Positions 5,301-26,299 of a DNA stretch of 64,000 bases are shown here, piece after piece. The DNA is taken from contig JAMCQI010000081.1 of the NCBI GenBank assembly GCA_023381515.1, forward strand, positions 62,001-126,000. Reading direction: 5' to 3'. The DNA comes from Chloroflexota bacterium (GTDB taxonomy: Bacteria > Chloroflexota > Anaerolineae > UBA4142). A program made the position numbers and the translations under genes. The notes beneath the pieces are model-generated. The model saw nothing but the letters and a program-made list of their open reading frames with translations, did no database searches and had not been told where the DNA came from. Position 1 is the stretch's first letter; each line of letters opens with the position of its first letter.

Positions 5301-5329
5301 GCGATTTTCCTTCTATGACTGACGTTCGG

Positions 5330-6368: not shown

Positions 6369-6376
6369 CTTTCACC

Positions 6377-7804: not shown

Positions 7805-8574
7805 CGATGGATTTCCTGGTATTTAGATTCACGCGGGCCCCGTTGAGATACACCGCTTGAATGATCGCCCAAAACGTGCGCATAGATTTCCATAAAGCCG
7901 GCGAGGTCCTTCCACTCCGGGCGGGCGAGATCGTACACCATGCGTCCGTTCCGCAGGATGAGCGCGCGGTCGCAGATCGCGAGTCCCCGTTCCAGATCGT
8001 GCGTCGAAAACAGGATCGAGCGGCCTTCGGCTTTGGCCCCGAGCATGATTTGATCGAGCAGGTCCGACGCGGTCTTGTCCAGGCCGGTATACGGCTCGTC
8101 GAGCAACAGGACCACCGGGTCGTGGAGGAGCATGCGGGCGATCGTCAGTCGCTGCTGCAGGCCGCGGGACAGCGTCCGGGTCACATCGCCGAGACGATTT
8201 TCGATGCCGACCCGCCGCGCCGCCGCGTGCACGCGGTCGGGAATATCCTTCAGATCGTACAGGCGGGCGAAAAACAGCAGATTCTCTTCCGCCGTCAGAT
8301 CGTCGTACATGAACGTTTGATGGCCGACAAAACCGATCGCGCCGCGTGCGGCGTTCGCGTGCTCGGCGAGCGGAATCTTGCCGATATAGACCCGCCCGCC
8401 GTCCGGACGCGCGAGCGTGGCGAGAATGCGTAAAAGGGTGGTCTTGCCGGCGCCGTTCGGGCCCACCAGAGCTACGATTTCACCCTGCTGTACCCGGAAA
8501 CTGATACCGCGCAGCGCCCAGCGGGCGCCGAACGTCTTGTCCAGTTTCTCAACCGTAATGAGCGGTTCGATCAC
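7801..8574 (-). CDS. ccmA: haem exporter ATP-binding subunit CcmA
   Basis: 257 residues. All ABC ATPase motifs are present: Walker A GPNGAGKTT, signature LSRGLQQRL, Walker B VLLLDEPYTGLD and H-loop STHD. Position between a membrane protein and ccmB identifies it as CcmA rather than another ABC ATPase. The C-terminus is about 30 residues longer than in proteobacterial CcmA. It overlaps the upstream gene by 4 nt. Confidence 0.95.
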   Translation of the reverse strand: MIEPLITVEKLDKTFGARWALRGISFRVQQGEIVALVGPNGAGKTTLLRILATLARPDGGRVYIGKIPLAEHANAARGAIGFVGHQTFMYDDLTAEENLLFFARLYDLKDIPDRVHAAARRVGIENRLGDVTRTLSRGLQQRLTIARMLLHDPVVLLLDEPYTGLDKTASDLLDQIMLGAKAEGRSILFSTHDLERGLAICDRALILRNGRMVYDLARPEWKDLAGFMEIYAHVLGDHSSGVSQRGPRESKYQEIHR

Positions 8575-9833
8575 CCCTTGCCCTCTTGAGATTCTCCGTG
8601 GTCCTCCTGGAGCGCCAAGAGCCTGGCTTTGGTTGCGGCACGCCGCGCGCGATAGTCGGTCTCCGAGATCTTGTGTTCCTCGAAAGCATCGTCCAGGTCG
8701 GCCATCTCCTGGAGCAAATCTAGACGCCGGGCATCGACGGCTCCGACCGGAACGGCCCGCGCGCGCCGCCGCCGGAGGAGAGGATAGGCGAGGAGCCCGA
8801 TCGCCGCGAGCGCGGCCACGCCCAACATCACTCCGCCGGCGATTTGCACTTGATTGTTACTCGCGGTCGTCGAAGGGGCCGCGCCCGTCGCCGACGGGGG
8901 CGCCGCCACCGTCTGTGGAAGATTCGTAAAGGTCCCCGTCACCACGGTCCCCGCTTTTAGATTGGTCGCCGAGCTGAGCATGTAATTCTGGCTGCCCTGC
9001 GTGGGAAAAGACGTGGGGGCGGTGAGCAGCGGACTCTGCAGCGTCGCGCCGACATCGGCGTAGAGGATCCGGAATTGGTCCGAGGCGTAGGGCAGGGTCA
9101 TGCTAAAGGAGGCGGTCGGCGGGTTGAAGGGGATCGAATAGTTGGCGACAATCTGGTTGCTGGGATCGTCGCCCGGCAGGAACGGGAGGGTGTACGCCAT
9201 GCTCGTGGCGCCGCGGAGCGTGGACTCGTCCGCCGCGGGATTATCCAATTGGATGTTCTGTGCACCCGCGAGGAGCGGCAGGATGAGCGTCGTGCGGTGG
9301 GGGCTGTCGCTTGCTCCGACGAACGCGCGGTCGCTCGAGTTGTGCACCGCGACAATTTCCAGAACGTTAAAGACCTTGGTGGCAATATCGAAAACAAAGT
9401 GGGTCTGGCTCACGGTGACGACGGTGGGGTCGGTCGTCGTTTCATACACCGTCATCGTCACCGGCATCGTCGTCTGGCTCGCGCCAAAGTTCAGCACATC
9501 CGAATAATAGTTCACGCCGGCGTAGTTGGACTGCAAGAGATAGCGCGTGGTGGTAATGGTATCGAGATGGGAAAACGCGAAATGGCCGCTCGCGTCCGCC
9601 TGTGTAGTCTGAGAGACGGTCGTCGTCGCGCCGGCGGGCGCCGAATGCAAGGTGACGGTGAGCCCCTCGGCCGCCGAGAGCTTGGCGCCCTGAGTCCCGT
9701 CGACGAGCTGGCCCTCGATTTGTCCCGGACCGGGCGTCTGTGCCTTGGCGGGGGGCGTGGGCAGCGCCATCAGGGCGAGGGCAAGGAAACTAGAAATCAC
9801 GAGTACAAGGACGAGCTGGGCTTGTCTGGTCAC
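8571..9833 (-). CDS. exported membrane-anchored protein of the ccm operon
   Basis: 420 residues. A signal peptide (residues 1-31, ending AKAQT) leads into a beta-rich extracytoplasmic region with a carboxypeptidase-regulatory-like segment (GQIEGQLVDGTQG, DASGHFAFSHLDT). One membrane helix follows near residue 340 (GGVMLGVAALAAIGLLAYPL), then basic residues and a cytoplasmic helix (LLQEMADLDDAFEEHKISET). That last helix resembles a helix in the next upstream gene. Function is unknown; a role in cytochrome c assembly is inferred from the 4-nt overlap with ccmA. Confidence 0.8.
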   Translation of the reverse strand: MTRQAQLVLVLVISSFLALALMALPTPPAKAQTPGPGQIEGQLVDGTQGAKLSAAEGLTVTLHSAPAGATTTVSQTTQADASGHFAFSHLDTITTTRYLLQSNYAGVNYYSDVLNFGASQTTMPVTMTVYETTTDPTVVTVSQTHFVFDIATKVFNVLEIVAVHNSSDRAFVGASDSPHRTTLILPLLAGAQNIQLDNPAADESTLRGATSMAYTLPFLPGDDPSNQIVANYSIPFNPPTASFSMTLPYASDQFRILYADVGATLQSPLLTAPTSFPTQGSQNYMLSSATNLKAGTVVTGTFTNLPQTVAAPPSATGAAPSTTASNNQVQIAGGVMLGVAALAAIGLLAYPLLRRRRARAVPVGAVDARRLDLLQEMADLDDAFEEHKISETDYRARRAATKARLLALQEDHGESQEGKG

Positions 9834-10607: not shown

Positions 10608-11005
10608 TATACACCCAATGGGGGCAAAGTTAAAAAAACGTGGCAGGCGGCATTCCGAGTTCTTCGTCCCCAGGACCGCCCGTAACGGCCGGGGCGGGGG
10701 AGAGAAAGCAGAAGGCAGAGAGCGTTTGGAACAAGAAGAACGCGAAAGGGCGCGAAAGGCGCGAAAAAGAGAAGGATGAAGGCGGAACCCCTGCTGGACC
10801 CCCGCAAAGAACGCGGGGTCTCGGGACCCGCTGTTCTTCGACTGTGCCCCGCTGGAGGGCGCGGGGCTCCGCTCAGAATGCGCGGGGCAGGCGGCGCGGG
10901 GCAGGTGATGAAGGATGAAGACGGCGCGGATGTAGGGGCGAGGCGTTTAAGGGATGAAGGCGGAACCCCGCTGGACCCCGCTGGAAAGCGCGGGGCAGGT
11001 GATGA
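10608..11005. repeat. low-complexity repeat-rich intergenic region
   Basis: No believable gene. The stretch is made of short direct repeats (gcgaaagg units, gatgaagg units) and repeated blocks containing ccccgctgga and gcggggcaggtgatgaagga. These also occur beside other decayed elements in this window (27620-27650, 37990-38010). It probably records repeated insertion and slippage near the decayed RAYT copy. Confidence 0.6.
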
Positions 11006-11387
11006 AGGATGAAGACGGCGCGGATGTAGGGGCGAGGCATTTGCCAGATCAATATGGTCATGGCGGCGAGATACGCTCGAGCCAGGCAGTTCTCTATCCG
11101 ATCTCGCGTTGGCAAATGCCTCGCCCCTACGCGCGGCATCCACACCCCTACCCGCGGCATCCACGCGTCCCCCGTCGTGCGTAATGACGACGATCGCGCG
11201 CGGATGATTGCGCATCACCACCCATTCATCAAATTTGATCTCGCGGCGAATCTCCGCCGACCGTTTCCACCCTCGTCTTCATCCTTCATCCCTCATCCTT
11301 CATCCTTCACTACGCGCCCGCCCGCGTGTAATCGTAACCGTGAAGGCGCGTCGATTTGCGGTAACGTTTGTCGGGATGGTGTTTCAT
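11006..11387 (-). pseudogene. decayed REP-associated (RAYT, Y1) transposase, copy A
   Basis: Starts at ATG 11387 with an unmistakable RAYT N-terminus (MKHHPDKRYRKSTRLHGYDY, then TRAGA) and hits a stop where the family continues YFVT. A run of gatgaagg heptamers replaces the middle. A second in-family fragment follows at about 11250-11160 (IRREIKFDEWVVMRNHPRAI). It corresponds to the motif normally reading VVMPNHxHGI, so the second His of the HUH site is lost. It then runs into the palindromic element at 11026-11130. Non-functional. Confidence 0.72.
11026..11130. repeat. 105-bp palindromic element, copy 1
   Basis: Perfect 21-bp inverted termini (11026-11046 and 11110-11130, starting GTAGGGGCGAGGCATTTGCC) enclose about 63 bp. 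The whole element recurs at 11883-11987 at over 95% identity by eye. It sits inside the variable region of a decayed RAYT transposase, as REP-type palindromes mobilised by such enzymes would. Confidence 0.85.
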
Positions 11388-11535
11388 GGAAGGTGGATGT
11401 TTGTAGGGGCGCCCCGATGTGGGCGCCCTTGTTGGGCGGCCCCCCAGGCGGGCGGCCATCCTTCGCGCGGCTCAGGACAGGCTCCGGGCCGCGCCTACGG
11501 GTTATCCGGTTCTGCGCGACCGCTGCCGGCCGCCT

Positions 11536-12090
11536 CTACAAGAGATAGGCGTCGCGGAGATAATCGTCAACCGTTCTGCGAGGGGCAGATTTCAGCGAAT
11601 GGATCGGGTTGTCGATATCGAGCGCCCACCGCGAGGGATTTGCGGCAATATACGCACGGACGGCCTCCCCTTCGCGTTCGTTGCGAATGATGTGGTCGTG
11701 GTAGCCGCGCTGCCAGACGGATGCACCTGCCGTATTGCGGAGGAGATTGATGCGCCGGGCCGTTGTGGATTTGAAATTGCCGATGATGGCGCCCAAGGAT
11801 CCGGCGGCCAGGGTGGGTCGTTGTAGGGGCGAGGCGTTTGAAAGATGAAGGATGAAGGCGGAAGGATGAAGACGGCGCGGACGTAGGGGCGAAGCATTTG
11901 CCAGATCATTATGGTCATGGCGGCGAGATACGCTCGAGCCAGGCAGTTCTCTATCCGATCTCGCGTTGGCAAATGCCTCGCCCCTACGCGCGGCATCCAC
12001 GCGCCTCGCGTCGCCCGCGATGACAACAATCGCATGCCGGCGGTCCGCCTCTGGGGCGTGCGACCCTAGCACCAATGCGCAAACGTGCAA
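11536..12090 (-). pseudogene. RAYT (Y1) transposase, copy B, N-terminally truncated
   Basis: 184 open codons whose C-terminal half is a classical RAYT tail: SLGAIIGNFKSTTARRINLL, then RNTAGASVWQRGYHDHIIRN (carrying the catalytic Tyr region), then AYIAANPSRWALDIDNP. The first half is only the end of the HUH segment (HAIVVIAGDARR) plus translated palindrome. The N-terminal domain with both metal-binding histidines is missing. Probably inactive alone, but the long open frame suggests recent decay. Confidence 0.75.
11883..11987. repeat. 105-bp palindromic element, copy 2
   Basis: Same element as 11026-11130. The arms 11883-11903 and 11967-11987 are 21-bp inverted repeats with one mismatch. It lies within the reading frame of RAYT copy B. 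Confidence 0.85.
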
Positions 12091-12182: not shown

Positions 12183-13415
12183 GTACTCCGTCAATCAGAT
12201 ATTGAAAGGTTGCGAGATTTGGAGTATCGCTAGGCCCTTCGCCCTGAAGGCGGAGACCCAAGGAGGGCTCCATGTCCAAGAAATATGTCGTGCGGCTGCA
12301 AGCCGAAGAGCGCGCTTTGTTGCTGGACCTCACGCAACAAGGCCAAGCCCCGGCCAAGGCCTTGACCCATGCGCGCATTCTGCTCAAGGCGGATGGCGCC
12401 GACGGGCAGGATGGCTGGACCGATGAAGCCATCCGGGACGCCCTGGATGTGAGCATTGCGACCATTGAGCGGGTGCGACGCCGCTATGTCAGGCAGGGAT
12501 TCCAGTCCGCCCTCGCTCGCCAAGCACGCTCCCGCGAACGAAGTCGACGCCTGGACGGGAATCAGGAAGCGCATCTCATTGCGTTAGCCTGTCGCGAACC
12601 ACCGGCGGGTCATTCTCGGTGGACGCTCCGCCTGTTGGCGGACCAGATGGTCCAACTCGAGTATGCGGAGGAGGTTTCCCACGAGACCGTCCGACAGACG
12701 CTAAAAAAAACGAACTCAAACCCTGGCCGAACTCGGAATGGTGCATCCCGCCCAAAGCCAGTGCGGCGTTTGTTGCCCAGATGGAAGATGTGCTGGATGT
12801 CTACCAGCGTCCCTACGACGCCCGCTTTCCGCAGATCTGCATGGATGAAACCAGCAAGCAGTTCGTCGGTGATACGCGACCGTCCCTACCGCCCCTCCCC
12901 GGACAAGTGTCTCGCCAGGACTATGAGTATCAGCCCAACGGCGTCTGCAATCTCTTCCTCTGTTTCGTGCCGCTCCAGAGTTGGCGGCAGGTGCAGGTGA
13001 CCGACCGGCGCACGGCGGTGGACTGGGCCCGTTTCATGCAACAACTGGCGGACGGGAGCTATGCTCAAGCCGAGCGCATCATCGTGGTCCTCGACAACCT
13101 GAACACGCACGGACCGAGTTCATTCTATGAAGCCTTTCCACCCGCCGAAGCGCGGCGGTTGGCCGCACGCTTCGAGTTTCACTACACGCCCAAGCATGGT
13201 AGCTGGCTCAACATGGCGGAGATCCAATTGAGTGCTTTGAGTCGCACCTGCTTGGATGAGCGCATTCCGAACCGGGCCACCTTAATCAACCACGTCGCGG
13301 CGTGCGAACGTGACCGCAATGCGAATGGTGCGACGGTGGATCGGCGCTTCACAACCAGCGACGCGCGGATCAAGTTGAAAAAGCTTTACCCAACAATATC
13401 AGTCTGACAGAGTAC
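12183..13415 (+). mobile_element. IS630-family insertion sequence A
   Basis: About 1.23 kb bounded by imperfect inverted repeats of about 22 bp (left starts GTACTCCGTCA, right end reads TGACAGAGTAC). It is flanked by TA at 12181-12182 and 13416-13417, the target duplication expected of the IS630/Tc1 superfamily. It holds one transposase read in two frames. Its right TA is also the left TA of element B. Confidence 0.88.
12272..13407 (+). CDS. IS630-family transposase, -1 frame change at an A8 run
   Basis: The first frame runs from ATG 12272 (GGAGG-like site upstream) and carries the helix-turn-helix and linker. It changes to the -1 frame at the eight A's at 12703-12710, giving LKKNELKPW across the junction, the sequence normal for uninterrupted family members. 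The second frame contains the DDE triad: MDET, LDNLNTH and the Glu of NMAEIQLS. Total about 378 residues. The A-run is a good slippery site, so programmed frameshifting is plausible; a simple indel cannot be excluded. Confidence 0.85.
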
Positions 13416-13417
13416 TA

Positions 13418-14673
13418 GTGGAGCGTTTGATAAGTATTTTAAGATAGTCCGGCAGTCTGTCGCTCCACCCATCGTCGCATTTTGCGTCGAGTCCAAGTCC
13501 AGGCTACCGGGCATGCGAATAGGCGATTGTACTCGTCGCAACTGCCGAGCAAATGATCGATCAGGGCACAGCGACTGCGCCACTCACCGCGTTTCAGATA
13601 GCGCTCGCCAAAGCTACGCAGTAGCAGTTCTGACTGGTTCAGCCACGACGCCCGCGCCGGGGTGAACAGGACACGCAACCAGGGTTGGTAGTCCCGTAAG
13701 AAACGGCAGGTCGTTTCAGATACGTGACTCGGGCCGTTGTCCCAGATCAGATGCAAGCGGCGGACCTGTCGATAGCTGTTGAACAACTCAGCTAAAATCG
13801 GGCACAGGTGTTCGCTGTCATTGGCATCCAAACACCAGCCGTGCATCTTGCCATCATTCACGGACAGCGCCGCGACGAAATTCACCGTACCATGCCGGAT
13901 GTACTCAAATTCTTGGCGCTCAATCTGGCCCGCCCGCAGCCGCTGCGTCGGCCGGGTGCGCTCGGTGGCCTGCAGATTGGGTTTCTCGTCGACGCTGAGA
14001 ATGATCTCATCGTGCTGATAGAGCCGTTCGACCTGCCCATAACACCATAAAACACGGCTCGCCCGCTCTACGAACTCCGCATCGAGGGTGGGCGTCTTCC
14101 AGTACCGCGAGCGATGCGGTTGGAGATCCGCCTCTCGCAGAATCAGCGACACGGTCGAATGGGCCAATTTCGGACGATGGAGTCGCTGCCGGGCGATCGT
14201 CGTCAGACTGCGCGTCGACCAATGCGTCAATTCCAAGTTCAGACCCAGCGGGTCACAACAGGCCAACTGCTCGATCTGAACCCGTTCCAGGGCGGTCAGC
14301 TCGCGTGGACGCCCCGATCGTTCGCCGATGTACACGGCGTCCAGGCCGGTGGCCTCGAAGCGCCGGCAGACATACCAAACGCCGGTGGGCGTGTAGTCGA
14401 CCTGGGGGCGAGATCGCTGACCACGGTCTCGGGATCGCTCATCGCCAGCAAGATGCGGGCCCGACGTGCGACGCGCTGTTCCGTATGGCCGTCGCGGACC
14501 AGTTCATCCAATTCTCGACGTTCGGCCCGGCTCAACCGAACCGGACGAGGCGGGCGTCTTCTCATCCGAGCGCTCCTCACTTTCCAACTTGGGATTGGAG
14601 GAGAAGTATACGCCAAACGGCGCAGCATCATCGCCGCCCACGACTATCTTGAAATACTTATCGAACAGTCCAC
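13418..14673 (-). mobile_element. IS630-family insertion sequence B
   Basis: About 1.26 kb. The ends 13418-13449 and about 14642-14673 are imperfect inverted repeats of about 32 bp (sharing GATAAGTATTT and AAGATAGTC). It is flanked by TA at 13416-13417 (shared with element A) and 14674-14675. It carries a transposase unrelated at subfamily level to that of A. A and B are arranged tail to tail with no other DNA between them. Confidence 0.87.
13439..14565 (-). CDS. IS630-family transposase, -1 frame change at a C5 run
   Basis: The N-terminal frame begins at ATG 14565 (MRRRPPRPVRLSRAERRELD) and carries the helix-turn-helix start. Near 14415, at GCCCCCAG, homology moves to the -1 frame (VWYVCRRFEATGLDAVYIGE), which runs to 13439. 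The DDE residues are intact: SVDEKPNLQA, LIWDNGPSHV and SWLNQSELLL. As in element A, the change falls at a homopolymer, so either programmed slippage or a one-base deletion fits. Confidence 0.82.
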
Positions 14674-14675
14674 TA

Positions 14676-15237
14676 GAGAGCCGGTGGTACGCGCGCAAAG
14701 GAATGCCGGCGTTCGCGTAAGGAGCGGGCCCTTTAGAGTTGGCGCATGGCCCCAACGAGTCGGCCGAGATTGAGCTTATCTATCAGCACACGCTGCTCTA
14801 CGCGGTGGCGGCGGATCGCCTCCTTGCTTCAACAATGAGCCGAGCGGCAACCATGGGCGTCCGCCCGATCGCATATCACCGCGCACTACCGTCTGCGCCC
14901 CGTGGGTCCGCCGCATCGCCTCGCTGGAAAACCAAACGCGTACGGCCGCTACGGCCGTACGGTTCTCATTCCACACTTGCCTAGGTTCCCACCCCGCGCC
15001 CCCGCCCTCTAACCCTCGCACCTTGGTTGCCATTATCAACCAAGGGCTTGCGCTGGTCCTAACAAGGGGTTAGCGTTGCCTCAGTCGCCACGGCAACCCG
15101 CCCGCGCTTGGGGAGGCTAGAGCTAAGGGGGCTTACAATTCGCCGAGCAGAAACAGAAGCGGCAACTGGCCTTCTTGGAGCGCTGGGGGCATTGGGAGCT
15201 GCGGAAAGCGGCGGTGGGAGCTGTGCCTGGGTATAGC
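14676..15237. other. gene-free region with several perfect hairpins
   Basis: No supported gene. Perfect hairpins occur at 14940-14960 (GTACGGCCG arms) and 15021-15045 (CCTTGGTTG arms), with a small CTAAC/GTTAG pair at about 15058-15073. The segment separates the IS pair from the dndB promoter and may mark the left border of the defence island. Confidence 0.55.
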
Positions 15238-15274
15238 AACAGCTCTTGACAAACATAGGAAGAGCTGTTATACT
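15238..15274 (+). promoter_or_regulatory. sigma70-type promoter with embedded dyad operator for dndB
   Basis: The -35 TTGACA (15246-15251) and -10 TATACT (15269-15274) have an ideal 17-bp spacer. A perfect 10-bp inverted repeat, AACAGCTCTT (15238-15247) and AAGAGCTGTT (15260-15269), overlaps the -35 and abuts the -10. A dimeric regulator bound there would block RNA polymerase. DndB proteins are described as repressors of dnd operons, so autoregulation is a reasonable inference. Confidence 0.82.
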
Positions 15275-15314
15275 TGGTGAAGCGAGCTCGACACTAACCA
15301 ATGAGGAGGTCTAA

Positions 15315-16484
15315 ATGAAGGTCCAGTTCCCAGCGATGAGAGCTTGCATTGGCAAGCGAGACTACTATGCCACGACAATGGCGCTCGCAGAAATCCCTCG
15401 GTTCTTTAAATTCAATGACTGGTCCCAGTTTGAGCCTTCTCAGCGGGCTCAGCGGGTTCTCAACGAATCCCGGGTCCCCGAGGTAACGAAATATATACTG
15501 GACAACGAGGATGGTTACATCTTCTCATCGATCACGGCTTCTTTCAACACCAAACCCGAATTCCGTGCGATGGACCCGGAGGGCCAGCTCGGGATTCTTG
15601 AGATGGACCTTGAAACAATGGAGTTCATAATCAACGACGGTCAGCATCGTGCTGCCGCCATCGCCCGAGCCCTTAAGGAGAATCCAGAAATCGGTAAAGA
15701 GCGCATCAGCGTACTGCTTTTCCCGATGGAAGATCTGGATCGCCTCCAGCAGATGTTCTCGGACCTGAACAGGTTCGTTCACAAGACGTCAAAGTCGCTG
15801 GACATTTTATACGACCACCGCGACAATCTCTCTGCCTTAACTAAGGAGCTAGAGGAACTCGTCCCCGTTTTTCAGGGGGTGCTGGAGAAGGAACGCATGT
15901 CCACTGGTGTCCGCTCGCCCAAGCTCCTGTCCATGTCGGCCCTGTATGATGCGAACGCTGAATTGCTAGGTCCAAAGATTGGCAAACCGGGCAGCACCGA
16001 CTATAAGTCGAAACTCACGCAGGCTGCGGATTTCTGGAACGCTGTAGCGACAGCCATTCCGGACTGGCAGAGGGTCAAGAGGGGAGAATTGTCGGCACCC
16101 GCACTCCGCCAGGAGAAAATCAATACACATACAGTTGTTTTGCGAGCGATCGGTGGGCTTGGCAGCGCGATCTTCGAGTATCGCAGTGCGGACTGGCAGG
16201 CTTGTCTGCTGGGACTGAAGGAGGTAGATTGGCGCAAGGCCGTAGGGTCAAAGGTGAACCCGCTGTGGGACAACGTCTGCATCGTTGCGGGTTCGGTTGT
16301 ATCGAACCGCCAAGCTCGCGTTGCCACTCAAGGGGTATTAAAGGATCTGCTGGAACTGCCTCTTTCCAATCAGGAGAATCAGGTGATCAATGCGTTGCGC
16401 CACGCGGGATGGAAAGGAACAAGAACGCCCAAGGTGCAGCCTGATCAACAAAGCCGCCCTGGCGACGGCAAATCCACACGATAG
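15315..16484 (+). CDS. dndB: DndB-like DGQHR-domain protein
   Basis: 389 residues, with GGAGG 7 nt before the ATG. The family signature NDGQHR is at residues 107-112, preceded by AQRVLNESRVPEVTKYILDN and followed by MFSDLNRFVHKTSKSLDILY, matching DndB of phosphorothioate DNA modification loci along most of its length. DndB influences transcription and frequency of sulfur modification in known systems. No dndA, C, D, E or the restriction genes dndFGH are present here. Instead a GHKL ATPase follows 12 nt downstream in the same transcript, so this may be a repurposed DndB acting with that ATPase. Family call strong; role uncertain. Confidence 0.88.
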   Translation: MKVQFPAMRACIGKRDYYATTMALAEIPRFFKFNDWSQFEPSQRAQRVLNESRVPEVTKYILDNEDGYIFSSITASFNTKPEFRAMDPEGQLGILEMDLETMEFIINDGQHRAAAIARALKENPEIGKERISVLLFPMEDLDRLQQMFSDLNRFVHKTSKSLDILYDHRDNLSALTKELEELVPVFQGVLEKERMSTGVRSPKLLSMSALYDANAELLGPKIGKPGSTDYKSKLTQAADFWNAVATAIPDWQRVKRGELSAPALRQEKINTHTVVLRAIGGLGSAIFEYRSADWQACLLGLKEVDWRKAVGSKVNPLWDNVCIVAGSVVSNRQARVATQGVLKDLLELPLSNQENQVINALRHAGWKGTRTPKVQPDQQSRPGDGKSTR

Positions 16485-16496
16485 GGGAGAAACGAC

Positions 16497-18860
16497 GTGC
16501 ACCCAGACACCCTTTTTCAGAGACTCCTAAGAGCTGAAAACGAGGAGGAGGTAGAACTCGCGTTGTCTGACGCGAGTTATCTCCTTGAAGAGGAAGCCTG
16601 GCAGCCGCTTGGGTTCGAAAACAACTTTGCGGCTATTGGCAATCAGAATAGTGATCCTAGCGGCGCCCTCGTCGAGAAAGTGATTAACGCAATAGACGCA
16701 ATGCTAATGGGGGAATGTTATACCCGAGGCATCGACCCTGAGGGCACCCGTGCTCCGCGTACCATGTCCCAGGCAATTGAAAAGTTCTTTGGAGTTCGAG
16801 ACGGCCACATCGATAATCTCTCCGCAAGTGAGCAGACGGAGCTTGCAGACAACATCCACCTGGTTGCCTGTGGCAGCAAACAAAATCCGAATTACCTCAT
16901 CATAGACCGCGGTGAAGGGCAGACCCCGGCCAGATTTGCAGACACATTTGTGTCGCTCATGCGCTCGAATAAGATTCGTATACCGTTCGTCCAGGGCAAG
17001 TTCAACTCGGGCGGAACCGGAATCCTTCAGTTCTGCGGCGACAAAAACTATGAGTTGATTGCTTCGCGGAGGAGGCCCGGCTGCCCGGTTGCCCCCGATG
17101 ACGAAACCAGCGACTTGTGGGGCTTCACAATCGTCCGGAGGCTCCTTCCCTCTGGCGGGCGTCGGAGCTCTATGTATGTGTATCTGGCCCCCGGGGGTCG
17201 CGTGCCGTCCTTTCGCTCCGACTCCATTAAGGTCCTCCCCGGCAAGTCCAAGGCCAACCATCCGGCGCCACCGTACGCAGTTGACCTACCCTACGGCACG
17301 TGCGTCAAGCTGTACGACTACCGCTGGCCCGCGAGAAGCTCCCTCACCACGGAGGGGAGGTATGAATTAGAGCGGTTCCTCCACTCCCCGTGCCTGCCAT
17401 TCCGAATTACCGAAACCAGAGAATACAAAGCGCACTATTACAGTGCAACGGTTATCGGAGGGTGGGCCAGTGCGACGTCAGAGGATGAAGAGGGCGAAAG
17501 CCGGAAGCTTGAGGACGGATTCCCGGGATATGCAAGCCTGAACATCGAGGCCGTCGGGACGCTACCCTACCAAATTGCGGTTTTCAAGCCAGGGACGGAT
17601 CCACGCCATGTTGCCAACGGCGCCTTCTTTCTGGTCAACGGGCAGGTGCATGGGTCACTCCCGTCAGACTTCATTTCGAGACGGTTGAGGTTCGATTACC
17701 TCCTGGGCAAGAGGGGGCCATTGCTTGTATCAGTGGACTGCACGGCGATGGACGAACGGGTACGCGAAGACTTCTTCATGGCGTCACGTGATCGCATTCG
17801 CAAGAACGAGGTCTATAAGATCATAGAGGACAAACTCACGGAAGCGTTGCGGGCGCATCCAGGCCTTCAAGAAATCAACCAACAGCGACGTAAAGAAGAA
17901 CTCGAGAAGCACCTAAGCGGACAGGCGCCCGCCGATACCTTTCAGAAGTTGCTGCAGATTGATCCAACGCTCTCGCGTCTTTTCGCCGATGGAGAGACTC
18001 TCGTGACGGCCACTGGCCCGCTCCCAAGGCCGCCGTTCGTTGGAAGGAAATTCCCAACTTTCTTCCGACTGGCGAATGAGCCCCAGAACGGGCTGGTCAA
18101 ACACTGCGCGGTTAACCGGACCTGTCGCATCGAATTTGAGACAGACGCGTCAAATGATTACTTCATCAGACCAGTGGATCCGGGCCTTATCTCGGTAGAC
18201 CCTCCGGACCTGATCGAGCACTCTCACCTGTGGAACGGTCACTTCGACACTCGGTTCCGGGTTCCGTGGGATTCAAAGCCGGGCGATCAAGTATGTGTTA
18301 CCGTCACCGTTAGCGACGTCGAGCGCGAGGCCCGTGGGGGGCCGTTCGTTGCATCTTTCGTTCTTGTTGCTGCTCCGGAGATAGGCGATGCTCCGCACAC
18401 CGGGAAGAATCGTGGACGTCGGGCCCCGAGGGATGATGGGAACACAAACAGAGTGTCACTAGCGCTGCCTAAGGTTAGGGAAGTCCAAAAGGAAGAATGG
18501 GAAAAGTTCGGTTTCACGAAGTACAACGCGGTCGACGTAAGGAATGGTGCCGAAGGCGGGTATGACTTTTACGTAAACATTGACAATGCATTCCTGCTCA
18601 ATGAGCTGGCTAAGGCGAACGAGCAGGATAGGCCTCTGATCAAGTTTTGGTTCAGCTACGGCCTCGTGCTCGCGGGGCTAGGGATGGTTAAGCATCACAT
18701 GAGACTCCAGTCGGAGTCCGATCCGGACTCGGGCGAGGATGGCGAATCGGGAGAGGGGCCGAACTTAAGGGAGATAAGCCGGCACTGCGATGGGCTGGCC
18801 CAGGTCATCGTTCCCATCATCCGCAGCCTATCCCATGGACCCGTCTTGGCAGCAGGCTAG
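16497..18860 (+). CDS. large GHKL (Hsp90/MutL/histidine-kinase-fold) ATPase, putative defence protein
   Basis: 787 residues from a GTG with AGGGGAG upstream. The N-terminal third is a GHKL ATPase: N-box E60-xxx-N64-xx-D67 (ALVEKVINAIDAML), G1 box DRGEGQ (137-142) and G2 box GKFNSGGTG (167-175). The middle has a transducer-like region (RHVANGAFFLVNGQ, YLLGKRGPLLVSVDCTAMDE) reminiscent of MutL/Hsp90 second domains. The C-terminal half is unassigned, with an Ig-like beta region (about 540-640) and a helical end. It is co-transcribed with dndB. No nuclease motif was seen, so it may be a nucleotide-dependent clamp or sensor. Its 3' end overlaps the convergent methyltransferase by 44 nt. Confidence 0.8.
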   Translation: MHPDTLFQRLLRAENEEEVELALSDASYLLEEEAWQPLGFENNFAAIGNQNSDPSGALVEKVINAIDAMLMGECYTRGIDPEGTRAPRTMSQAIEKFFGVRDGHIDNLSASEQTELADNIHLVACGSKQNPNYLIIDRGEGQTPARFADTFVSLMRSNKIRIPFVQGKFNSGGTGILQFCGDKNYELIASRRRPGCPVAPDDETSDLWGFTIVRRLLPSGGRRSSMYVYLAPGGRVPSFRSDSIKVLPGKSKANHPAPPYAVDLPYGTCVKLYDYRWPARSSLTTEGRYELERFLHSPCLPFRITETREYKAHYYSATVIGGWASATSEDEEGESRKLEDGFPGYASLNIEAVGTLPYQIAVFKPGTDPRHVANGAFFLVNGQVHGSLPSDFISRRLRFDYLLGKRGPLLVSVDCTAMDERVREDFFMASRDRIRKNEVYKIIEDKLTEALRAHPGLQEINQQRRKEELEKHLSGQAPADTFQKLLQIDPTLSRLFADGETLVTATGPLPRPPFVGRKFPTFFRLANEPQNGLVKHCAVNRTCRIEFETDASNDYFIRPVDPGLISVDPPDLIEHSHLWNGHFDTRFRVPWDSKPGDQVCVTVTVSDVEREARGGPFVASFVLVAAPEIGDAPHTGKNRGRRAPRDDGNTNRVSLALPKVREVQKEEWEKFGFTKYNAVDVRNGAEGGYDFYVNIDNAFLLNELAKANEQDRPLIKFWFSYGLVLAGLGMVKHHMRLQSESDPDSGEDGESGEGPNLREISRHCDGLAQVIVPIIRSLSHGPVLAAG

Positions 18861-20064
18861 CTCGATCGCTGCGCGGGACGTGAAAGAGCAGCAATTCCTT
18901 GCGGGTGCGGCGCGTTTGAGTCGTCCGATTGTACCAGCTACGATTTGGAACAGTCCGCCAAAGTGTATCGCGGCTTGTGGAGATTGGGAAGGCCTCCTCG
19001 AAGCCCGCCGTTTCCATGGCTTGCAAGAATTCGGGAAGTTGGCTGTCGGGGTCATAGAACGAAACGACCTGGACGACCATCCCTCGCGGGTGCATGATCG
19101 ATCTCATAGATCGATATGCCCCCACAAGCATTCGGTAATAGGTTTCGCGCCCTGACCGCGCTCTAGTACCCATGGTGTAGTATGAAGGGGGATTCCCATC
19201 GCTTTCTCCGATGAACCAGTATGGAGCGGGCGTCTCTCGTCTGCCCGCCACCTGCCAACGATTGTACAGGACGTGCACGCTTGGGTAGGGGGGCGAAGTG
19301 AGGATTAACTCGGCCTTTCCCAGTATCGATTCTAAACGCGTATCTGTGTGCGCGTCCACTGAAGAGCGGTGTAGGATCACCCGCCGAGCGGTCAGGTCCC
19401 GTCTGGAATACCCATGCTCACGGGCGCAAGAGACCAGGTCCCTTAGCCCTGCAAGCATTGCTTCGACGGATGTGAGCAACTGGCTCTTCAACTCTGATCT
19501 TGCCGGAAAGGAGCTCTTCCCATCCATACACCACTGTCCCACACGCAGAAGACAGCAACGACCGAATCGCTGTTGTCTCTTCTTTGGAAGTTGATCCACC
19601 TGGAGAAGAGCCCTGCCAAATACCCGCTGCGCCCGCAGGCCCAGGTTTGTTACCTCTGGAGCCGTTCCCTCAGAGGCGTGCGCGAATTTTGATGGGGCCA
19701 AATCAAGTCCAGATGCCCACTTGCGAATGACTTCCTCATCGCGAGGGCTAAGAGGGGTCGTCTTCACTTCCGCTATGAAAGTTGCAAGGGAGTTGACATC
19801 AATTCCTACCGCTCGCCTGCCGCAGGCTATGGCCTCGACTACGCTTGTGCCCCCACCCATGAACGGGTCAAGCACGATGCCGCCCGGCGTGGTGAAAAGG
19901 CCTATCACCTCTCGCGCCAACTCAGGAGGCATTCTCGCTGGGTATCGGTAGAAACTATGAGTCAATCCGGCCTTTGATACAGGAGAAGACGAGTGGAGGG
20001 ACTTGAGCAGAGAGGACTTGCCTTCGGACGAGATTCCGGTTCGCGTAGAAGTCATTTCACCCAT
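18817..20064 (-). CDS. DNA methyltransferase (N4/N6 amino class)
   Basis: 415 residues. The AdoMet motif DPFMGGGT is at residues 66-73 and the catalytic TSPPY at 256-260, separated by a long variable region that probably recognises the target. A GVPxYPARM-like N-terminal segment (HSFYRYPARM) resembles methyltransferases of the PF01555 group. TSPPY is often associated with N4-cytosine enzymes, but the base cannot be fixed from sequence. It is tail to tail with the GHKL ATPase. It may protect host DNA from the McrBC pair encoded upstream on the same strand, or belong with dndB-GHKL. Confidence 0.87.
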   Translation of the reverse strand: MGEMTSTRTGISSEGKSSLLKSLHSSSPVSKAGLTHSFYRYPARMPPELAREVIGLFTTPGGIVLDPFMGGGTSVVEAIACGRRAVGIDVNSLATFIAEVKTTPLSPRDEEVIRKWASGLDLAPSKFAHASEGTAPEVTNLGLRAQRVFGRALLQVDQLPKKRQQRFGRCCLLRVGQWCMDGKSSFPARSELKSQLLTSVEAMLAGLRDLVSCAREHGYSRRDLTARRVILHRSSVDAHTDTRLESILGKAELILTSPPYPSVHVLYNRWQVAGRRETPAPYWFIGESDGNPPSYYTMGTRARSGRETYYRMLVGAYRSMRSIMHPRGMVVQVVSFYDPDSQLPEFLQAMETAGFEEAFPISTSRDTLWRTVPNRSWYNRTTQTRRTRKELLLFHVPRSDRASLLPRRVHGIGCG

Positions 20065-20540
20065 TCCCTTGGAAAAGGCTCAACGTGATGTCTCGCAACG
20101 GCCAATCCACATGCCAAACCGCCCCGACAACTGATCCGTCGAGAAAAATCGCTGCCGGGCGAAAACAAGGTGGGCCCGAGAAGGAGGAGGAGCAACCGAG
20201 CACTGCCTCCGTCCTTGGTGCCTTTCCGCCCCATCTCCTGGCCGGCTTGAACCGACGGCATGTGCCGCCTCAGGAGCAGCTCGCGTTGGCTTTCGATCAC
20301 AGTGCCAGCACTTGCGGGAGGAAAGCCCGCATCCCGCGAAACGTTTTCTCACACCGATAAGTCTCGGGAGTGGCGGCAACGAACCGCGCCAGCGAATTTC
20401 ATTCCTCACTTCGTTCGTTTTCATTATACAGCAAAACCCAGAACTCGTACCACACCGCTGCGACCATGATCGTTTCGGGGAGCGATTCCCGGCGGGGTTG
20501 GAAACGTCGAGCGCTATGCCTTCGCCATGTGCTCAAGGAA
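20065..20540. other. gene-free stretch between methyltransferase and toxin remnant
   Basis: Short open frames on both strands show no recognisable motif and no convincing ribosome site. It probably holds the promoter of the minus-strand methyltransferase near 20080-20150, but no clear -35/-10 pair was found. Confidence 0.4.
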
Positions 20541-20669
20541 CTATGCAGGGGAAACGGCGGGGATCGGAGACCGCTTATAGTGCGCGAGGATACGGGTGAC
20601 GAGAAATGCAGCTGCAAAAGCGATGGCGCTGGCCACCTGCAAGGCGTTCCTACCGAGGAGCACCTTCAT
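20541..20669 (-). pseudogene. internally deleted PIN-domain toxin remnant
   Basis: 42 codons beginning MKVLL, then jumping to ALQVASAIAFAAAFLVTRIL and ending at a TAG. The same protein is intact at 25561-25962, where about 85 residues separate the two parts. The deletion is in frame and removes most catalytic acidic residues; a stop then removes the last residues. It is a dead paralogue of the downstream toxin. Confidence 0.8.
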
Positions 20670-20740
20670 TCTTTGTCGACTTGGTAGTGCTCCTTGAGCG
20701 CCGCGAGACGCGCGTTGGGCTTGCGGGACACGACGACGCG
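20666..20740 (-). pseudogene. antitoxin C-terminal remnant
   Basis: About 24 codons (SRKPNARLAALKEHYQVDKE then TGA) corresponding to the end of the intact antitoxin at 25959-26204. The ribbon-helix-helix DNA-binding part is gone. The ATGA overlap with the toxin remnant is preserved, confirming that the pair was once an operon. Confidence 0.75.
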
Positions 20741-20768: not shown

Positions 20769-21019
20769 TCATGGACGTGTAATCGCGCGAATCGCCCGCC
20801 ACCGCTCGACCTTGTCCCTGAGGGCAATCGCATTCGCGCCGCTGGTTGAGGCAAGCCGGACGGCATTGACGATGCCGCATCGCCCGGCGCGGTCCCGAGG
20901 ATGAGAACGCGCGAATTGGGAAAAACGACGGCGGGGAGTGCTCGCTTCTCATCCGTCGTGACCTCATCGACATCCACGACCATTGCGTCAGCCTCCGAGT
21001 GGCCTGATATTAGGGTCAT
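20769..21019 (-). pseudogene. remnant of a uracil/deoxyinosine-type DNA glycosylase
   Basis: The first frame, starting with ATGA overlapping the mcrC stop, reads PNSRVLILGTAPGDA, the N-terminal active-site strand of small uracil-DNA-glycosylase-superfamily enzymes. After a deletion and frame change the other frame gives VRLASTSGANAIALRDKVER then WRAI, matching the LPSTSPAN motif and following helix at the family C-terminus. The middle (about 100 residues) is missing. The link to mcrC suggests that the glycosylase was once part of the same operon. Based on motif memory only. Confidence 0.5.
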
Positions 21020-22485
21020 GGTCCGGACCCTTCCAGGGGCTCCCGAAGGACATCGAGCGTCTGTACCAGTTCCTGAGCGGGTTGCCCCGGTTGCAGCTGA
21101 AGAGGAAGCCCGAGTAGGCTCGTTTCAATCTGGCGGGTATGAGTAGGAAGCTTGGCTCTCACAACCGCCCGGTTTTGACCGGCGAGCGTTTTCCAGGTGG
21201 TGGGAAACAAGGGATAGACCAGGGATGTGACCACACGCGGGGTATCGAAGAGCGAAGCATAAGCGAGTGCCTGGTGGAAGTCGTGGCGGTGCTCCGATCT
21301 CAACTCCTCACCCAACTCTGACCACCTCTGGTCATCCAGCTCCTCAAAGTGCGCTTTGTACTTGGCGTCGAATACGTACGTCGAATCTCCCGCTTGCACC
21401 ACAAAATCAGGGGCTAGATCGCGGAGGCTCCCTGCTCCAGGGCGTTCCCAATAGATCGGGAAGCGAGCGTTGCCTTCTCGCGCTGTCGTGGTGGCGCCCC
21501 CAAAGTCGTGCGCCCACCTACGCACTATATTCTCGACCCAGCGCTCATAGAGCTCGCTCATCGGCAATCGCCAGGACAGGCCGTCCATTTCTGATAGCCC
21601 GGCCAGTCCCCGTTCATCGACAAGCCAGCCAATTGCCTCCAGCCCATCCCACAAGATGGATGTCGGCAAGGCCAGTTGTGTGGCCAATTGATCAAGTACA
21701 CGGTGCTGCGGAACCCGAGGGCATGTATCGCGTAGTCCCCAAAGGAGCCGATCAGCGATCTCGATTAGGTGTCGGGCCACCAGGTCGAGCGTTGCCCAGC
21801 CGGCAAGCGAGGAGCGTACCCGCTCGAGGCTCCAACGCAAGTAGGAACGTAAGAGCCAATCGGGGCCGAGTTCTGGGAACTGGCAAGGCAGTTGGTGATA
21901 CCGCCCGTGCGCCATCTGCTCTCCGACATACTTCGACCACAAGATGTGTCCGCGAGGCATTTGGCGGATTTGCTCTTCGAGGCGGAACCCGCGTGTGAGG
22001 TGGGTCAGCAACGCGCCGATCCGCTGTATGATGGGACCCGCTAGGACCCACGGAGGAACTTCACGAGCGCTGCCTGGGACAAGGGGATATTTGAGGAGTT
22101 GAGGTGCGGCTGTCCAACCAATTTCATTCAAGACCGCGCCAACCCCGTTCCAGCCGAAACGCGGTTTCACAACAACCCCGCCCGCAATCTTGTGCGAGTC
22201 GGGCGACTGAAGGGGAATGGCGCCGACAATCCCGGATGGACGCAGGACGAGACTAATCGTATCCGGTCGCGGAACAAGGCCGGTCTCGATCCCGAGCGAT
22301 TCGAACTGGGGTCGGTTCACACGCAGCAGATTATCTGCCCAGGCGTTCCAGGAGCGGTCCCGGCCCGAGATTCCTAGCTCCTCTGGAGAGATGTGCCGAC
22401 CGGCCCCGGTATCGGCGAGCACCCAGAACACGCGCTTTCGGGGTGACCGTGAGTAGGGTCTAGTTACGCGCGGCACGTTGGGCAA
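21016..22485 (-). CDS. mcrC: McrC-like restriction nuclease subunit
   Basis: About 489 residues from a TTG at 22485 (a GTG at 22476 is equally possible). The C-terminal PD-(D/E)xK nuclease core is visible as APDFVVQ then YVFDAKYK, with a later helix HDFHQALAYASLF, as in McrC/LlaJI-type subunits. McrC supplies the nuclease while McrB translocates DNA. It overlaps mcrB by 26 nt, so the two are coupled. The N-terminal half is poorly conserved, as usual. Confidence 0.87.
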   Translation of the reverse strand: MPNVPRVTRPYSRSPRKRVFWVLADTGAGRHISPEELGISGRDRSWNAWADNLLRVNRPQFESLGIETGLVPRPDTISLVLRPSGIVGAIPLQSPDSHKIAGGVVVKPRFGWNGVGAVLNEIGWTAAPQLLKYPLVPGSAREVPPWVLAGPIIQRIGALLTHLTRGFRLEEQIRQMPRGHILWSKYVGEQMAHGRYHQLPCQFPELGPDWLLRSYLRWSLERVRSSLAGWATLDLVARHLIEIADRLLWGLRDTCPRVPQHRVLDQLATQLALPTSILWDGLEAIGWLVDERGLAGLSEMDGLSWRLPMSELYERWVENIVRRWAHDFGGATTTAREGNARFPIYWERPGAGSLRDLAPDFVVQAGDSTYVFDAKYKAHFEELDDQRWSELGEELRSEHRHDFHQALAYASLFDTPRVVTSLVYPLFPTTWKTLAGQNRAVVRAKLPTHTRQIETSLLGLPLQLQPGQPAQELVQTLDVLREPLEGSGP

Positions 22486-23950
22486 TCTGTCCCTCTAACC
22501 AATCCACGTACGCATGAACCTCGCTCTCGCATGAGCCCAGACGTCCCTCTTGCAGATACTCATTGAGCAACGGGAGCAGTTCATACCGGAATCGATTTAG
22601 CAACTCCTCCTCGCTGGTCGCGAGAAAATAGGAATGACCGGGCATGAGCACAAGGGCCTCCTCAGGAGCGTACTGTGTGAAGAGGTCCTGCAGCTGGGCA
22701 AAGGCTTCTGTTGCGAGAGGCAAATTCTGTTCGGCGACCACTTTAATATCTGGCCACAGCGCAATGAAAGCAAATCGGCGTCGCACGGCGAGATCCAGAA
22801 TGGCGATGGAACGGTCCGCGCTGTTCATCGTGCCGAGGATGTAGAGATTCTCAGGAATCGTCAATTCCCGCGTCCCATCGTCCAGGCTCTGGGGAAGCGT
22901 TACGCGGCGTCCCTCCCCCTTCCGGATTTCGCCGCACTCGAACAAGTAGATCGCTTCGCCAAGCACGCGACCGAGGTCAGCCCGGTTTATTTCATCGATG
23001 TGCAGGAGGAATTTGCTCGAGGCTTGGCGCACGGCTTGAATTAGCCAGCCGGGTGAAACGCCAAACCGAAGGTTCGAGTTAGAAACATCCGGGCTGATGC
23101 CGGCGACGAAAGTCTCGTAGGTCACGGCAGGGTGGAACTGAACAGTCATGCCGTGACCGGCGAAATCCTGCTCCAGCACCTCCCTTGCCATCCGCGTCTT
23201 GCCGGTTCCAGGCGGGCCTTCCAAAATCACAAACTGGCGCTCGTAAAGCAGGTCGACCAGACTGTGCCGATCAACACGTTCAAACAGATTCGCCCGCAGT
23301 GCGCCGAGATAGGCTTCGACCTCGTTGGACGCGGCCTTTAAAGGACTCCAGCCCCGCTCCCAAGCATAGAGGTCGAGAAAGGCGGCGACAACCCGTTCTG
23401 CCTTTTCAGGGTCACGAGGTACGGGAGCCGCGCAATAGATAAAGCTACCGTAACGGCTGAAAACTGAAGCGAAGCCAGGGTACTGGCGGCGCACCGTCTC
23501 TGGGAGAGGCTGACTGAGATTCGTGGGATCGTATTTGGACCAGACGGAAACGCCTTGCTTGGAGAGATAGCGCCGGAGCGCGCGCAAATTGCGGGCGTGC
23601 CCGGGGCGACCGAGTATTTGCTCGTCGGGCGACAGGCCGCGTGTACCGCACACTAAAGTCAGAAGAGAAGCAGGACCGCTCTCGCCGTCCGAGGAGATGG
23701 GGAACCAAATGAGCGATGTTCCGCCATAGGCACCACTGGAGGGACTGTCGGGGTGCACAAAACCTGCGAAGGAGACATTATCGTCGCTCGGCATCAGAAC
23801 CACACGGATGCCGTGAGGGGCCCGGGCTTGGTAACGCTCTCCAAAGATCCCTTCCAACGCGTCCCGGCACCGTTTCCCAAGTTCGTCTCGGTTCGTCTTC
23901 TCGGGGAGTCCCTCGCGCACGAGACTAGCAAGTTCATTCAAGGCGGTCAT
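22460..23950 (-). CDS. mcrB: McrB-like AAA+ GTPase of a McrBC restriction system
   Basis: 496 residues from ATG 23950 with AGAGG upstream. Residues 1-215 are a target-sensing N-terminal domain of the kind seen in MrcB-type proteins. The AAA+ core has Walker A GPPGTGKT (245-252), Walker B LLHIDEINRAD and the McrB signature GTMNSADRS followed by ILDLAVRRRFAFI. McrBC cuts DNA carrying modified bases, or acts as a translocating type II-like enzyme when paired with its own methyltransferase. The nearby methyltransferase on the same strand makes the latter possible. Confidence 0.9.
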   Translation of the reverse strand: MTALNELASLVREGLPEKTNRDELGKRCRDALEGIFGERYQARAPHGIRVVLMPSDDNVSFAGFVHPDSPSSGAYGGTSLIWFPISSDGESGPASLLTLVCGTRGLSPDEQILGRPGHARNLRALRRYLSKQGVSVWSKYDPTNLSQPLPETVRRQYPGFASVFSRYGSFIYCAAPVPRDPEKAERVVAAFLDLYAWERGWSPLKAASNEVEAYLGALRANLFERVDRHSLVDLLYERQFVILEGPPGTGKTRMAREVLEQDFAGHGMTVQFHPAVTYETFVAGISPDVSNSNLRFGVSPGWLIQAVRQASSKFLLHIDEINRADLGRVLGEAIYLFECGEIRKGEGRRVTLPQSLDDGTRELTIPENLYILGTMNSADRSIAILDLAVRRRFAFIALWPDIKVVAEQNLPLATEAFAQLQDLFTQYAPEEALVLMPGHSYFLATSEEELLNRFRYELLPLLNEYLQEGRLGSCESEVHAYVDWLEGQIAQRAARN

Positions 23951-24062
23951 TTGCACCTCTGATGGATGTCCGGCTTTTGGTTCGGGGGATCAAGTTGTAA
24001 GGGTACGCACTGGATTACGCCTTGCTGTGGGAGACACAGCCCAAACGCGCAACTAAAAACAG

Positions 24063-24455: not shown

Positions 24456-24525
24456 AATCCGTTTTGACGGAGCTGGATCGCCCGCAGGGGCGAGCGTAGA
24501 AGGGCCTCGAAAGAGGCTCTTTTAT
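24456..24525 (+). ncRNA. candidate small RNA with own promoter and terminator
   Basis: A consensus -10 TATAAT (24444-24449) with a TTGCTT -35 (24422-24427) should start transcription near 24456. About 70 nt later a strong terminator stem (AGGGCCTC-GAAA-GAGGCTCT, 24501-24520) is followed by TTTATTGTTTT. Between them are two small hairpins (24459-24470 and 24479-24492). No ORF of note is present. The terminator overlaps the 3' end of the convergent DUF3800 gene, so antisense effects are possible. Confidence 0.5.
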
Positions 24526-25352
24526 TGTTTTGGGTAGATTACAACGCCATAGCCATCCAGTCTATTATCGTAGAGATGGCGGTTGAATTTGGTTTCCACG
24601 CTTCGCATAAGGCGTTCGCAGAACGCGCCCAGGTCCCCCTCGATAAGGCCCGCTCGCTTCAACGCCCACTGTTTCACGGGATGTCCCAGTAGATCCGCGA
24701 GTTGCAGCCCGGAGATATTTGCCTTTTTCTGCTTCAGCTTTAGCTCCCGAGAGGTGAGCGCCCGCTGGAAAGATTCTGCACGCGTCATCCAGACTCCCCG
24801 TGTGAATACGTAGGAGTACGAGTCCGCGAGCAAGCGATCCTCTTTGCCTCCCCGCGCTTCTGCCATCACATCGCCCACCCGGTTGATATGGTTGAGATAG
24901 CCGGCATAGCGCTGCAAAAGAAAGCCAAGACCTAAATGGTAGGGATGCGCGGCCGCATCACCATAGGTGTTGTAGAGCGTCGCCTTGTCGATAATGACCG
25001 CGACAACTCGGAAGTCGGCCGCTTGGATGACGTTCAACAGGTCCTTGTCGAATTCCGCGCGTCTCGCGTCATCGCGTAGCACCTTGAACTCTCGCCGCGC
25101 GTTGATCATATCCTCGCGGTGCAAAATGGCCGGGTCGTCCGGGTGGTGGGGCAAGTGGCAGCGCTTGAGGGATTCCAGCGCCTCATGAAATCGCAGGTAC
25201 TCGGGATTCCGAAACCAGCAACCCAGCAGACAAAGAAAGCGGTGCGCCGGATTCGCGAAATCACGAAAGACGTGGTCGCCCGACTCATCCAGATAGAGGC
25301 GGTAACGATCCTCGAATTCAAATAGCCGAGGCGGCGCGTCCGTCAAACCCAA
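24522..25352 (-). CDS. DUF3800 domain protein
   Basis: 276 residues with the hallmark N-terminal YLDESGDHVF (about 20-29) and the C-terminal NISGLQLADLLGHPV block of DUF3800. That family has an RNase H-like fold and is common in defence islands and mobile DNA; its acidic residues suggest nuclease activity. An HREDM segment near residue 79 adds further conserved charges. The gene stands alone between two direct repeats (24063-24204, 25416-25522), which suggests acquisition as a unit. Confidence 0.85.
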   Translation of the reverse strand: MGLTDAPPRLFEFEDRYRLYLDESGDHVFRDFANPAHRFLCLLGCWFRNPEYLRFHEALESLKRCHLPHHPDDPAILHREDMINARREFKVLRDDARRAEFDKDLLNVIQAADFRVVAVIIDKATLYNTYGDAAAHPYHLGLGFLLQRYAGYLNHINRVGDVMAEARGGKEDRLLADSYSYVFTRGVWMTRAESFQRALTSRELKLKQKKANISGLQLADLLGHPVKQWALKRAGLIEGDLGAFCERLMRSVETKFNRHLYDNRLDGYGVVIYPKQ

Positions 25353-26204: not shown

Positions 26205-26299
26205 GTATGCATTATAGCATAAAGTATGCACAGTCGCAAGGACGAGGGCGTATACCGCACAACCGATATGGCCTTGCGAGCTCCGCCACTCCACCCTGC

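Follow-up and report, generated by a model that had tools for sequence, protein, structure and literature searches.

What does a DndB protein do where the genes for DNA phosphorothioation are missing? The question is raised by a locus in a 64,000-nucleotide stretch of a Chloroflexota bacterium (GenBank assembly GCA_023381515.1, contig JAMCQI010000081.1, positions 62,001 to 126,000; hereafter the window, with positions counted from its first letter), in which a dndB-like gene is followed by the gene of a GHKL ATPase. An earlier interpretation made from the letters alone, the sequence-only reading, had seen here a two-gene module. It had missed a third gene, that of a convergent DNA methyltransferase, and the DndB gene itself proved to be one of several that can precede the ATPase. 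We consider it probable that the three genes form a defence module guarded by modification, with the layout of a restriction–modification (R-M) system under a controller (C) protein, i.e., a controller, an effector and a convergent protective methyltransferase.

Layout of the Locus

The proposed controller (15315–16484, forward strand) is a DndB, or DGQHR family, protein of 389 residues. It matches PF14072 at full family length (E 2e-94, 316.8 bits over residues 5–348), exceeds the cut-off of TIGR03187, narrowly misses that of TIGR03233 (325.3 against 328), matches the PADLOC DndB model (E 8e-104) and carries the DGQHR signature as NDGQHR at residues 107–112. The proposed effector, a GHKL ATPase of 787 residues (16497–18860, forward strand), starts 12 nt after the DndB gene on the same strand. 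This much had been described in the sequence-only reading, including intact N, G1 and G2 boxes, and it was borne out, now with the fold checked. The third gene (18817–20064, reverse strand) encodes an N6/N4 DNA methyltransferase of 415 residues (PF01555, E 3e-15; motifs DPFMGGGT and TSPPY), proposed to be the self-marking enzyme, and its 3′ end and that of the ATPase gene overlap by 44 bp. C-controlled type II R-M systems show the same gene order, in which a gene of regulator type immediately precedes that of the effector in one direction and the methyltransferase is transcribed on its own.

The Methyltransferase as Partner of the ATPase

Contigs were searched with an alignment of the ATPase, and the best 80 of 109 loci were kept, so that the sample leans to relatives of the query. 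Further loci came from other searches, and 18 names were removed as duplicates, second pieces or loci lacking the ATPase. The resulting 102 loci, some of them incomplete, were scored with profiles made for this analysis. In 47 of them the ATPase has a linked methyltransferase of this family (41 convergent, 5 upstream, 1 downstream); in L005 and L062 it stands behind an interrupted ATPase gene, which brings the linked loci to 49. Where at least 1.3 kb of downstream sequence is available (77 loci), the enzyme is present in 44, counting L005 and L062, and convergent in 41. In the 41 convergent cases scored among the 102 loci, the 3′ ends are separated by a median of 5 bp, and by 50 bp or less in 39. 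Motifs DPxxGGGT and TSPPY are among the columns kept in at least 85% of the 47 methyltransferases. Pairwise distances of the methyltransferase and the ATPase are correlated over 43 loci (r 0.38, a value reached in none of 2000 permutations). With 49 linked loci out of 102, a DNA methyltransferase is the partner that recurs most with the ATPase family.

Loci scored as lacking it were also inspected. Among 40 downstream neighbors of such loci, two match D12 methyltransferases (L017, where the gene is convergent, and L027, assigned by sequence), one matches the type ISP C-terminal domain (L019, judging by its length) and two are the methyltransferases of L005 and L062 already counted.

An Exchangeable First Gene

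Several classes of gene may stand immediately before that of the ATPase in the same orientation: small85, a family of 85-residue proteins (18 of the 102 loci), c2 (16), c3 (13), PIN (7), DndB (6), Mrr_N (3) and c32 (2). DndB occupies the position in the window, L001, L002, L003, L075 and L103, from 4 bp overlapping to 55 bp away. The recurrence in other genomes of a DndB and GHKL ATPase pair without neighboring dndCDE, for which the sequence-only reading had suggested a search, is supported. L013, where none of these classes was scored, has a DGQHR protein above the PF14072 cut-off.

Over the 96 rows of an ATPase tree, the class of the first gene, in some cases labelled by hand, changes at least 25 times, and ATPases as similar as 81% identity follow different first genes (c3 in L088, c2 in L040). 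The five DndB rows fall in one clade of six together with L005, with full support (Shimodaira–Hasegawa-like approximate likelihood ratio test, SH-aLRT, 100); the L075 ATPase was too short to enter. Judged by these changes, the place before the ATPase resembles a slot that takes genes for control or sensing. As for the classes themselves, an AbrB-like open reading frame (ORF) lies just before the PIN gene in five of seven PIN loci (not in L009; the L004 record starts inside the PIN frame), and the two such ORFs tested match MazE_antitoxin; we read this class as a toxin–antitoxin pair. Of two c2 proteins tested, one matches Mrr_N weakly and below the cut-off close to the C-terminus, and to our eye the c2 N-terminus resembles a ribbon-helix-helix (RHH) protein. 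A small85 relative lies without the ATPase on plasmid L114 (1631–1891, reverse strand), so that this family also occurs alone.

A Phased AGCT Array over the Promoter

A sigma-70 type promoter (TTGACA-17-TATACT, 15246–15274, forward strand) precedes the DndB gene and lies inside an operator-like array (15197–15288), whose AGCT cores at 15197, 15219, 15241, 15263 and 15285 follow each other in 22-bp steps. Their contexts are, in order, GAGCTGC, GAGCTGT, ACAGCTC, GAGCTGT and GAGCTC. Both the promoter and the 10-bp dyad reported over it earlier (15238–15269) are real, and the dyad corresponds to sites 3 and 4 of the array. No other triple of AGCT at 22-bp pitch exists within the window.

The array is conserved. 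ACAGCTC/GAGCTGT half-sites around TTGACA are common to four DndB–ATPase loci, namely the window and three from draft genomes (L001, Methylomirabilota; L003, a groundwater bacterium; L075, Acidobacteriota). The 150 bp upstream hold 3, 3, 2 and 4 exact half-sites, a sum of 12 that none of 2000 dinucleotide shuffles reached (highest 2). The steps from one AGCT core to the next are four of 22 bp in the window and in L003, three of 22 bp in L001, and 45, 22 and 22 bp in L075. The count of AGCT pairs 21–24 bp apart is unmatched in 6349 (window), 809 (L001), 1991 (L003) and 457 (L075) other segments of the same loci. Genome-wide, the exact three-site pattern is confined to this promoter in G001, G003 and G005. 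The L103 record starts inside DndB.

Two exact half-sites within 30 bp were found in none of ten loci from a DndB-profile search, including the dndBCDE operons L198–L200, and the two AGCT of L198, 21 bp apart, have a different context. On a plasmid of Neorhizobium sp. SOG26 (L114, 5866–7912), a DndB gene with neither dndCDE nor the ATPase beside it diverges from a TIR-domain gene, and the region between them contains seven AGCT cores spaced 22, 21, 22, 45, 22 and 23 bp, a pattern that none of 1455 other segments matches. A 100/100 branch of a 14-row DndB tree separates the five ATPase-linked DndBs and that of L114 from eight others, six of which have dndC beside them. With the array present both at ATPase-linked DndBs and at L114 where the ATPase is missing, it goes with this DndB clade. 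Between 15262 and 27213 the window has no exact half-site, and the methyltransferase is therefore not under the array. In Salmonella, DndB has been described as an autorepressor that binds two TACG-N10-CGTA palindromes (PMC4507180), and a DndB-like protein as binding ATP and GTP (PMC12704722). The conserved array over the promoter is consistent with the earlier proposal that DndB sets the dose of the ATPase.

Relation to Phosphorothioation Genes

No tblastn match to dndC, dndD or dndE was found in the window, beside the DndB–ATPase loci, or beside the ATPase in any locus so scored. At genome scale DndC alone was sought, in five genomes, mostly drafts that may be incomplete (four with the DndB–ATPase pair and one with a more distant DGQHR–ATPase pair); none has a match over the cut-off, and G004 has one weak match. 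Each of the five has a single PF14072 match, which is the paired gene. Judged by the linked genes and by DndC in these five other genomes, the locus does not appear to be a Dnd phosphorothioation system. When 95 and 396 genomes of two phyla were searched with the DndB profile, four hits exceeded 300 bits: the ATPase-linked DndB of G001 and three in dndBCDE operons. Seven of the weaker hits were inspected, with Ssp-type genes adjoining in L205–L207, dndA- or dndC-like genes near L201 and L203, a DUF262 relative alone near L202, and neither Ssp-type nor dnd-like genes near L204.

Ssp-type genes do adjoin more distant relatives of the ATPase in three of five plasmid hits (Ensifer, Devosia and Hymenobacter) and also in L058 and L107. 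On the Hymenobacter plasmid the ATPase gene converges with an operon that includes SIR2, DUF262 and Ssp-type genes and that takes the position held by the methyltransferase elsewhere. The names PAPS reductase and DUF4007 were taken here from sequence records, and DUF4007 is presumably equivalent to SspB. In L115 (4321–8696) and L116 (11536–16038), the ATPase and the Ssp-type genes have two further neighbors, a "sensor histidine kinase" of about 780 residues and a hypothetical gene, which may correspond to the HEF_HK pair of PMC8011034.

These neighborhoods bear on the strongest alternative, a modification-dependent (type IV or Ssp-like) restriction system in which DndB would use a ParB-like NTPase fold, in the manner of SspE and GmrSD, to sense methylated or phosphorothioated DNA, with the ATPase as its partner effector and the methyltransferase incidental. 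The similarity of DGQHR and DUF262 domains and the ParB/Srx fold assigned to GmrS (PMC4619093) speak for it, as do the Ssp-type neighbors of L058, L107, L115, L116 and L117 and the McrBC-like genes of the window itself. We nevertheless regard it as unlikely: dndC, D and E were not found beside the DndB–ATPase loci, nor DndC over the cut-off in the five genomes searched, DndB precedes the ATPase in only 6 of 102 loci against 59 with other gene classes, the array points to transcriptional control, and the methyltransferase recurs across loci.

The GHKL ATPase

The ATPase belongs to the GHKL superfamily by its Bergerat fold, its transducer (S5-like) domain and its three boxes: N (LVEKVINAIDAMLMG, residues 58–72, 16668–16712; strict motif in 73 of 79 alignment rows), G1 (DRGEG, residues 137–141, 16905–16919; 75 of 79) and G2 (GKFNSGGTG, residues 167–175, 16995–17021; 62 of 79), all on the forward strand. 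Structure prediction of the C-terminal half, suggested along with the sequence-only reading, gave an immunoglobulin-like beta sandwich at about residues 517–634 (18045–18398, forward strand) and no clear nuclease fold. The DUF4263 nuclease domain of Shedu type I-D had no match at E 0.1 (Pfam) or 0.01 (PADLOC). Out of 7995 proteins scored, 1416 belong to the ATPase family at E 0.001 or better; a Pfam domain is found in none of the best 120 of these, and no model in the libraries tried scores the family above threshold. Defence-system finders built on those libraries would miss it.

No helicase or endonuclease is a constant partner among the neighbor clusters. The distribution is scattered (9 of 400 and 8 of 396 genomes, with plasmid copies too), and integrases make up 4 of 132 neighbors, with none among the 25 control-list families listed. 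By eye, L014 (a Methanophagales archaeon) has a second GHKL-looking protein downstream of the ATPase (6967–9090), and in L028 a SIR2-like gene (4769–6729) overlaps the ATPase gene end; a SIR2-annotated gene also overlaps the ATPase gene of L117.

The scattered distribution, the plasmid copies and the nearby integrases fit a mobile conflict system better than a housekeeping role, which makes a second alternative improbable, somewhat more so than the first: an epigenetic or chromosome-organizing module (MORC- or topoisomerase-like), or else a selfish addiction pair whose ATPase would harm cells that lose the methyltransferase. The capacity of eukaryotic MORC ATPases to entrap and compact DNA (PMC8277788, PMC12216690) would suit this alternative; addiction and defence are not mutually exclusive. 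Least likely of all is the two-gene DndB–ATPase defence pair of the sequence-only reading, with the methyltransferase outside it, as L002 would exemplify: despite the close same-strand spacing of the pair in all six DndB loci, the methyltransferase is convergent in four of them (the window, L001, L003 and L103), with L002 lacking it and L075 ending inside the ATPase.

Proposed Mechanism

In the three-gene, modification-guarded module that we favor, the methyltransferase would methylate the host's own DNA as a self-mark, and restriction would fall to the ATPase, which as an ATP-driven dimer would clamp incoming DNA that lacks the mark. The dimer may close on such DNA much as MORC proteins entrap chromatin, and the clamped DNA could be held, compacted or passed to a nuclease. 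At its own promoter DndB would bind the AGCT array, probably in an ATP-dependent manner and cooperatively across sites two helical turns (22 bp) apart, and would keep the DndB–ATPase operon low until the separately transcribed methyltransferase has marked the genome. C proteins can likewise delay the restriction enzyme in a newly entered host (PMC3874152). Alternatively, infection may release the operon by altering the nucleotide state of DndB. We infer each of these functional steps: binding of the array by DndB, protection by methylation, action of the ATPase on DNA and the antiviral role.

Several observations weigh against this reading. No nuclease family was matched in the ATPase in Pfam, TIGR and PADLOC scans. 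No linked relative of the methyltransferase exists in 33 of the 77 loci with enough downstream sequence, L002 with its DndB and ATPase being among the loci lacking it; the family as a whole may not require the methyltransferase, unless the self-mark comes from another place in such genomes. The correlation of methyltransferase and ATPase distances may derive partly from shared ancestry. The array was not found before the distant DndB of L002. Finally, 37 of 102 loci carry none of the upstream classes, a DNA-binding domain could be assigned in none of the small85, c3 and c32 members tested, and no shared operator emerged for classes other than DndB; for these three reasons the role of controller is not extended to most of the family. 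A check proposed earlier, whether defence genes gather around the ATPase loci, gave an enrichment that is weak and suggestive only. Of the claim that the locus represents an uncharacterised defence system, the recurrence of the pair without dndCDE beside it was supported, its limitation to two genes was not, and a function in defence is probable.

Comparison with Known Systems

GHKL ATPases (prokaryotic MORC, or paraMORC) have been known in R-M operons since 2008 (Iyer et al. 2008, PMC2292703), a work in which MORC proteins proper are marked by a GhXhhpXXRhl motif in the S5 domain. Like the ATPases described there, the present family joins GHKL and S5-like domains and is linked to DNA methylases, and in this window restriction genes lie close by. 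Set against the published description of paraMORC1-5, it differs by the tail-to-tail methyltransferase, the exchangeable upstream gene, the C-terminal Ig-like domain and the lack of a constant helicase or endonuclease partner; DndB is not mentioned in the portion of that description considered. C-protein type II R-M systems have, as is proposed here for DndB, a controller directly upstream of the effector in one operon, a separate methyltransferase and repeated sites over the promoter, whereas here the first gene is DndB or another family and the effector is an ATPase with no recognized nuclease. As in dndBCDE operons, DndB is the first gene under palindromic sites, but dndC, dndD and dndE are absent, this DndB falls outside the dnd-linked DndBs, and the sites form a 22-bp AGCT array in place of the Salmonella palindromes. 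VcSduA, a Shedu type with a GHKL domain annotated as paraMORC3 (PMC12137116), places a GHKL ATPase in phage defence; it has a C-terminal PD-(D/E)xK nuclease, none of which is recognized here, and the parts of that report considered describe no methyltransferase partner.

Among the titles and abstract openings listed in searches on DndB, DGQHR, paraMORC, GHKL and phosphorothioate restriction, none describes this module, and the terms GHKL, MORC, MutL and Hsp90 do not occur in the main text of a 2024 reappraisal of dnd systems (PMC10853773), where the role of DndB within phosphorothioate systems is presented as debated. DndB appears to have been treated in the literature as part of such systems. 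In the present loci it resembles a transferable controller accompanied by conserved sites, and its DNA binding and nucleotide switching thereby become testable separately from sulphur chemistry.

Because the ATPase is linked both to methylation and to Ssp-type genes, the data suggest one restriction principle operating with different self-marks. More speculatively, and with much less confidence than in the three-gene reading, we envisage a so far undescribed family of immune modules whose GHKL ATPase, itself without a nuclease, would trap DNA that carries no self-mark; this mark would be base methylation in many of them and backbone phosphorothioation in others, and a plug-in first gene would act as the switch. 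One branch would be the DndB clade that left the dnd system, with a nucleoside triphosphate-gated array on phased 22-bp AGCT sites that controls at least two effectors, the GHKL ATPase and, on the Neorhizobium plasmid, the TIR protein.

Neighboring Genes in the Window

Beyond the methyltransferase, a McrC-like protein (PF10117) and a McrB-like AAA protein (21016–23956, reverse strand) may be a modification-dependent restriction pair of the same island. They are followed on the same strand by a DUF3800 protein (24522–25352) and a DUF6364/RHH plus PIN pair (25561–26210), of which a decayed, shortened copy with 84–88% DNA identity lies between the methyltransferase and McrC (20514–20725). To the left of the operon, transposase pieces (PF13565, PF13358), one split across two frames, occupy 12272–14335; we take them to be IS630-like. 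A duplicated stretch at 10894–12033 includes a 146-nt repeat with copies 857 bp apart at 97% identity, plus repeats of 35–58 nt. Farther to the right, two ORFs (27034–28589, reverse strand) resemble by eye a phage terminase large subunit and could mark the start of a prophage; in Pfam the first has no match and the second has weak P-loop matches.

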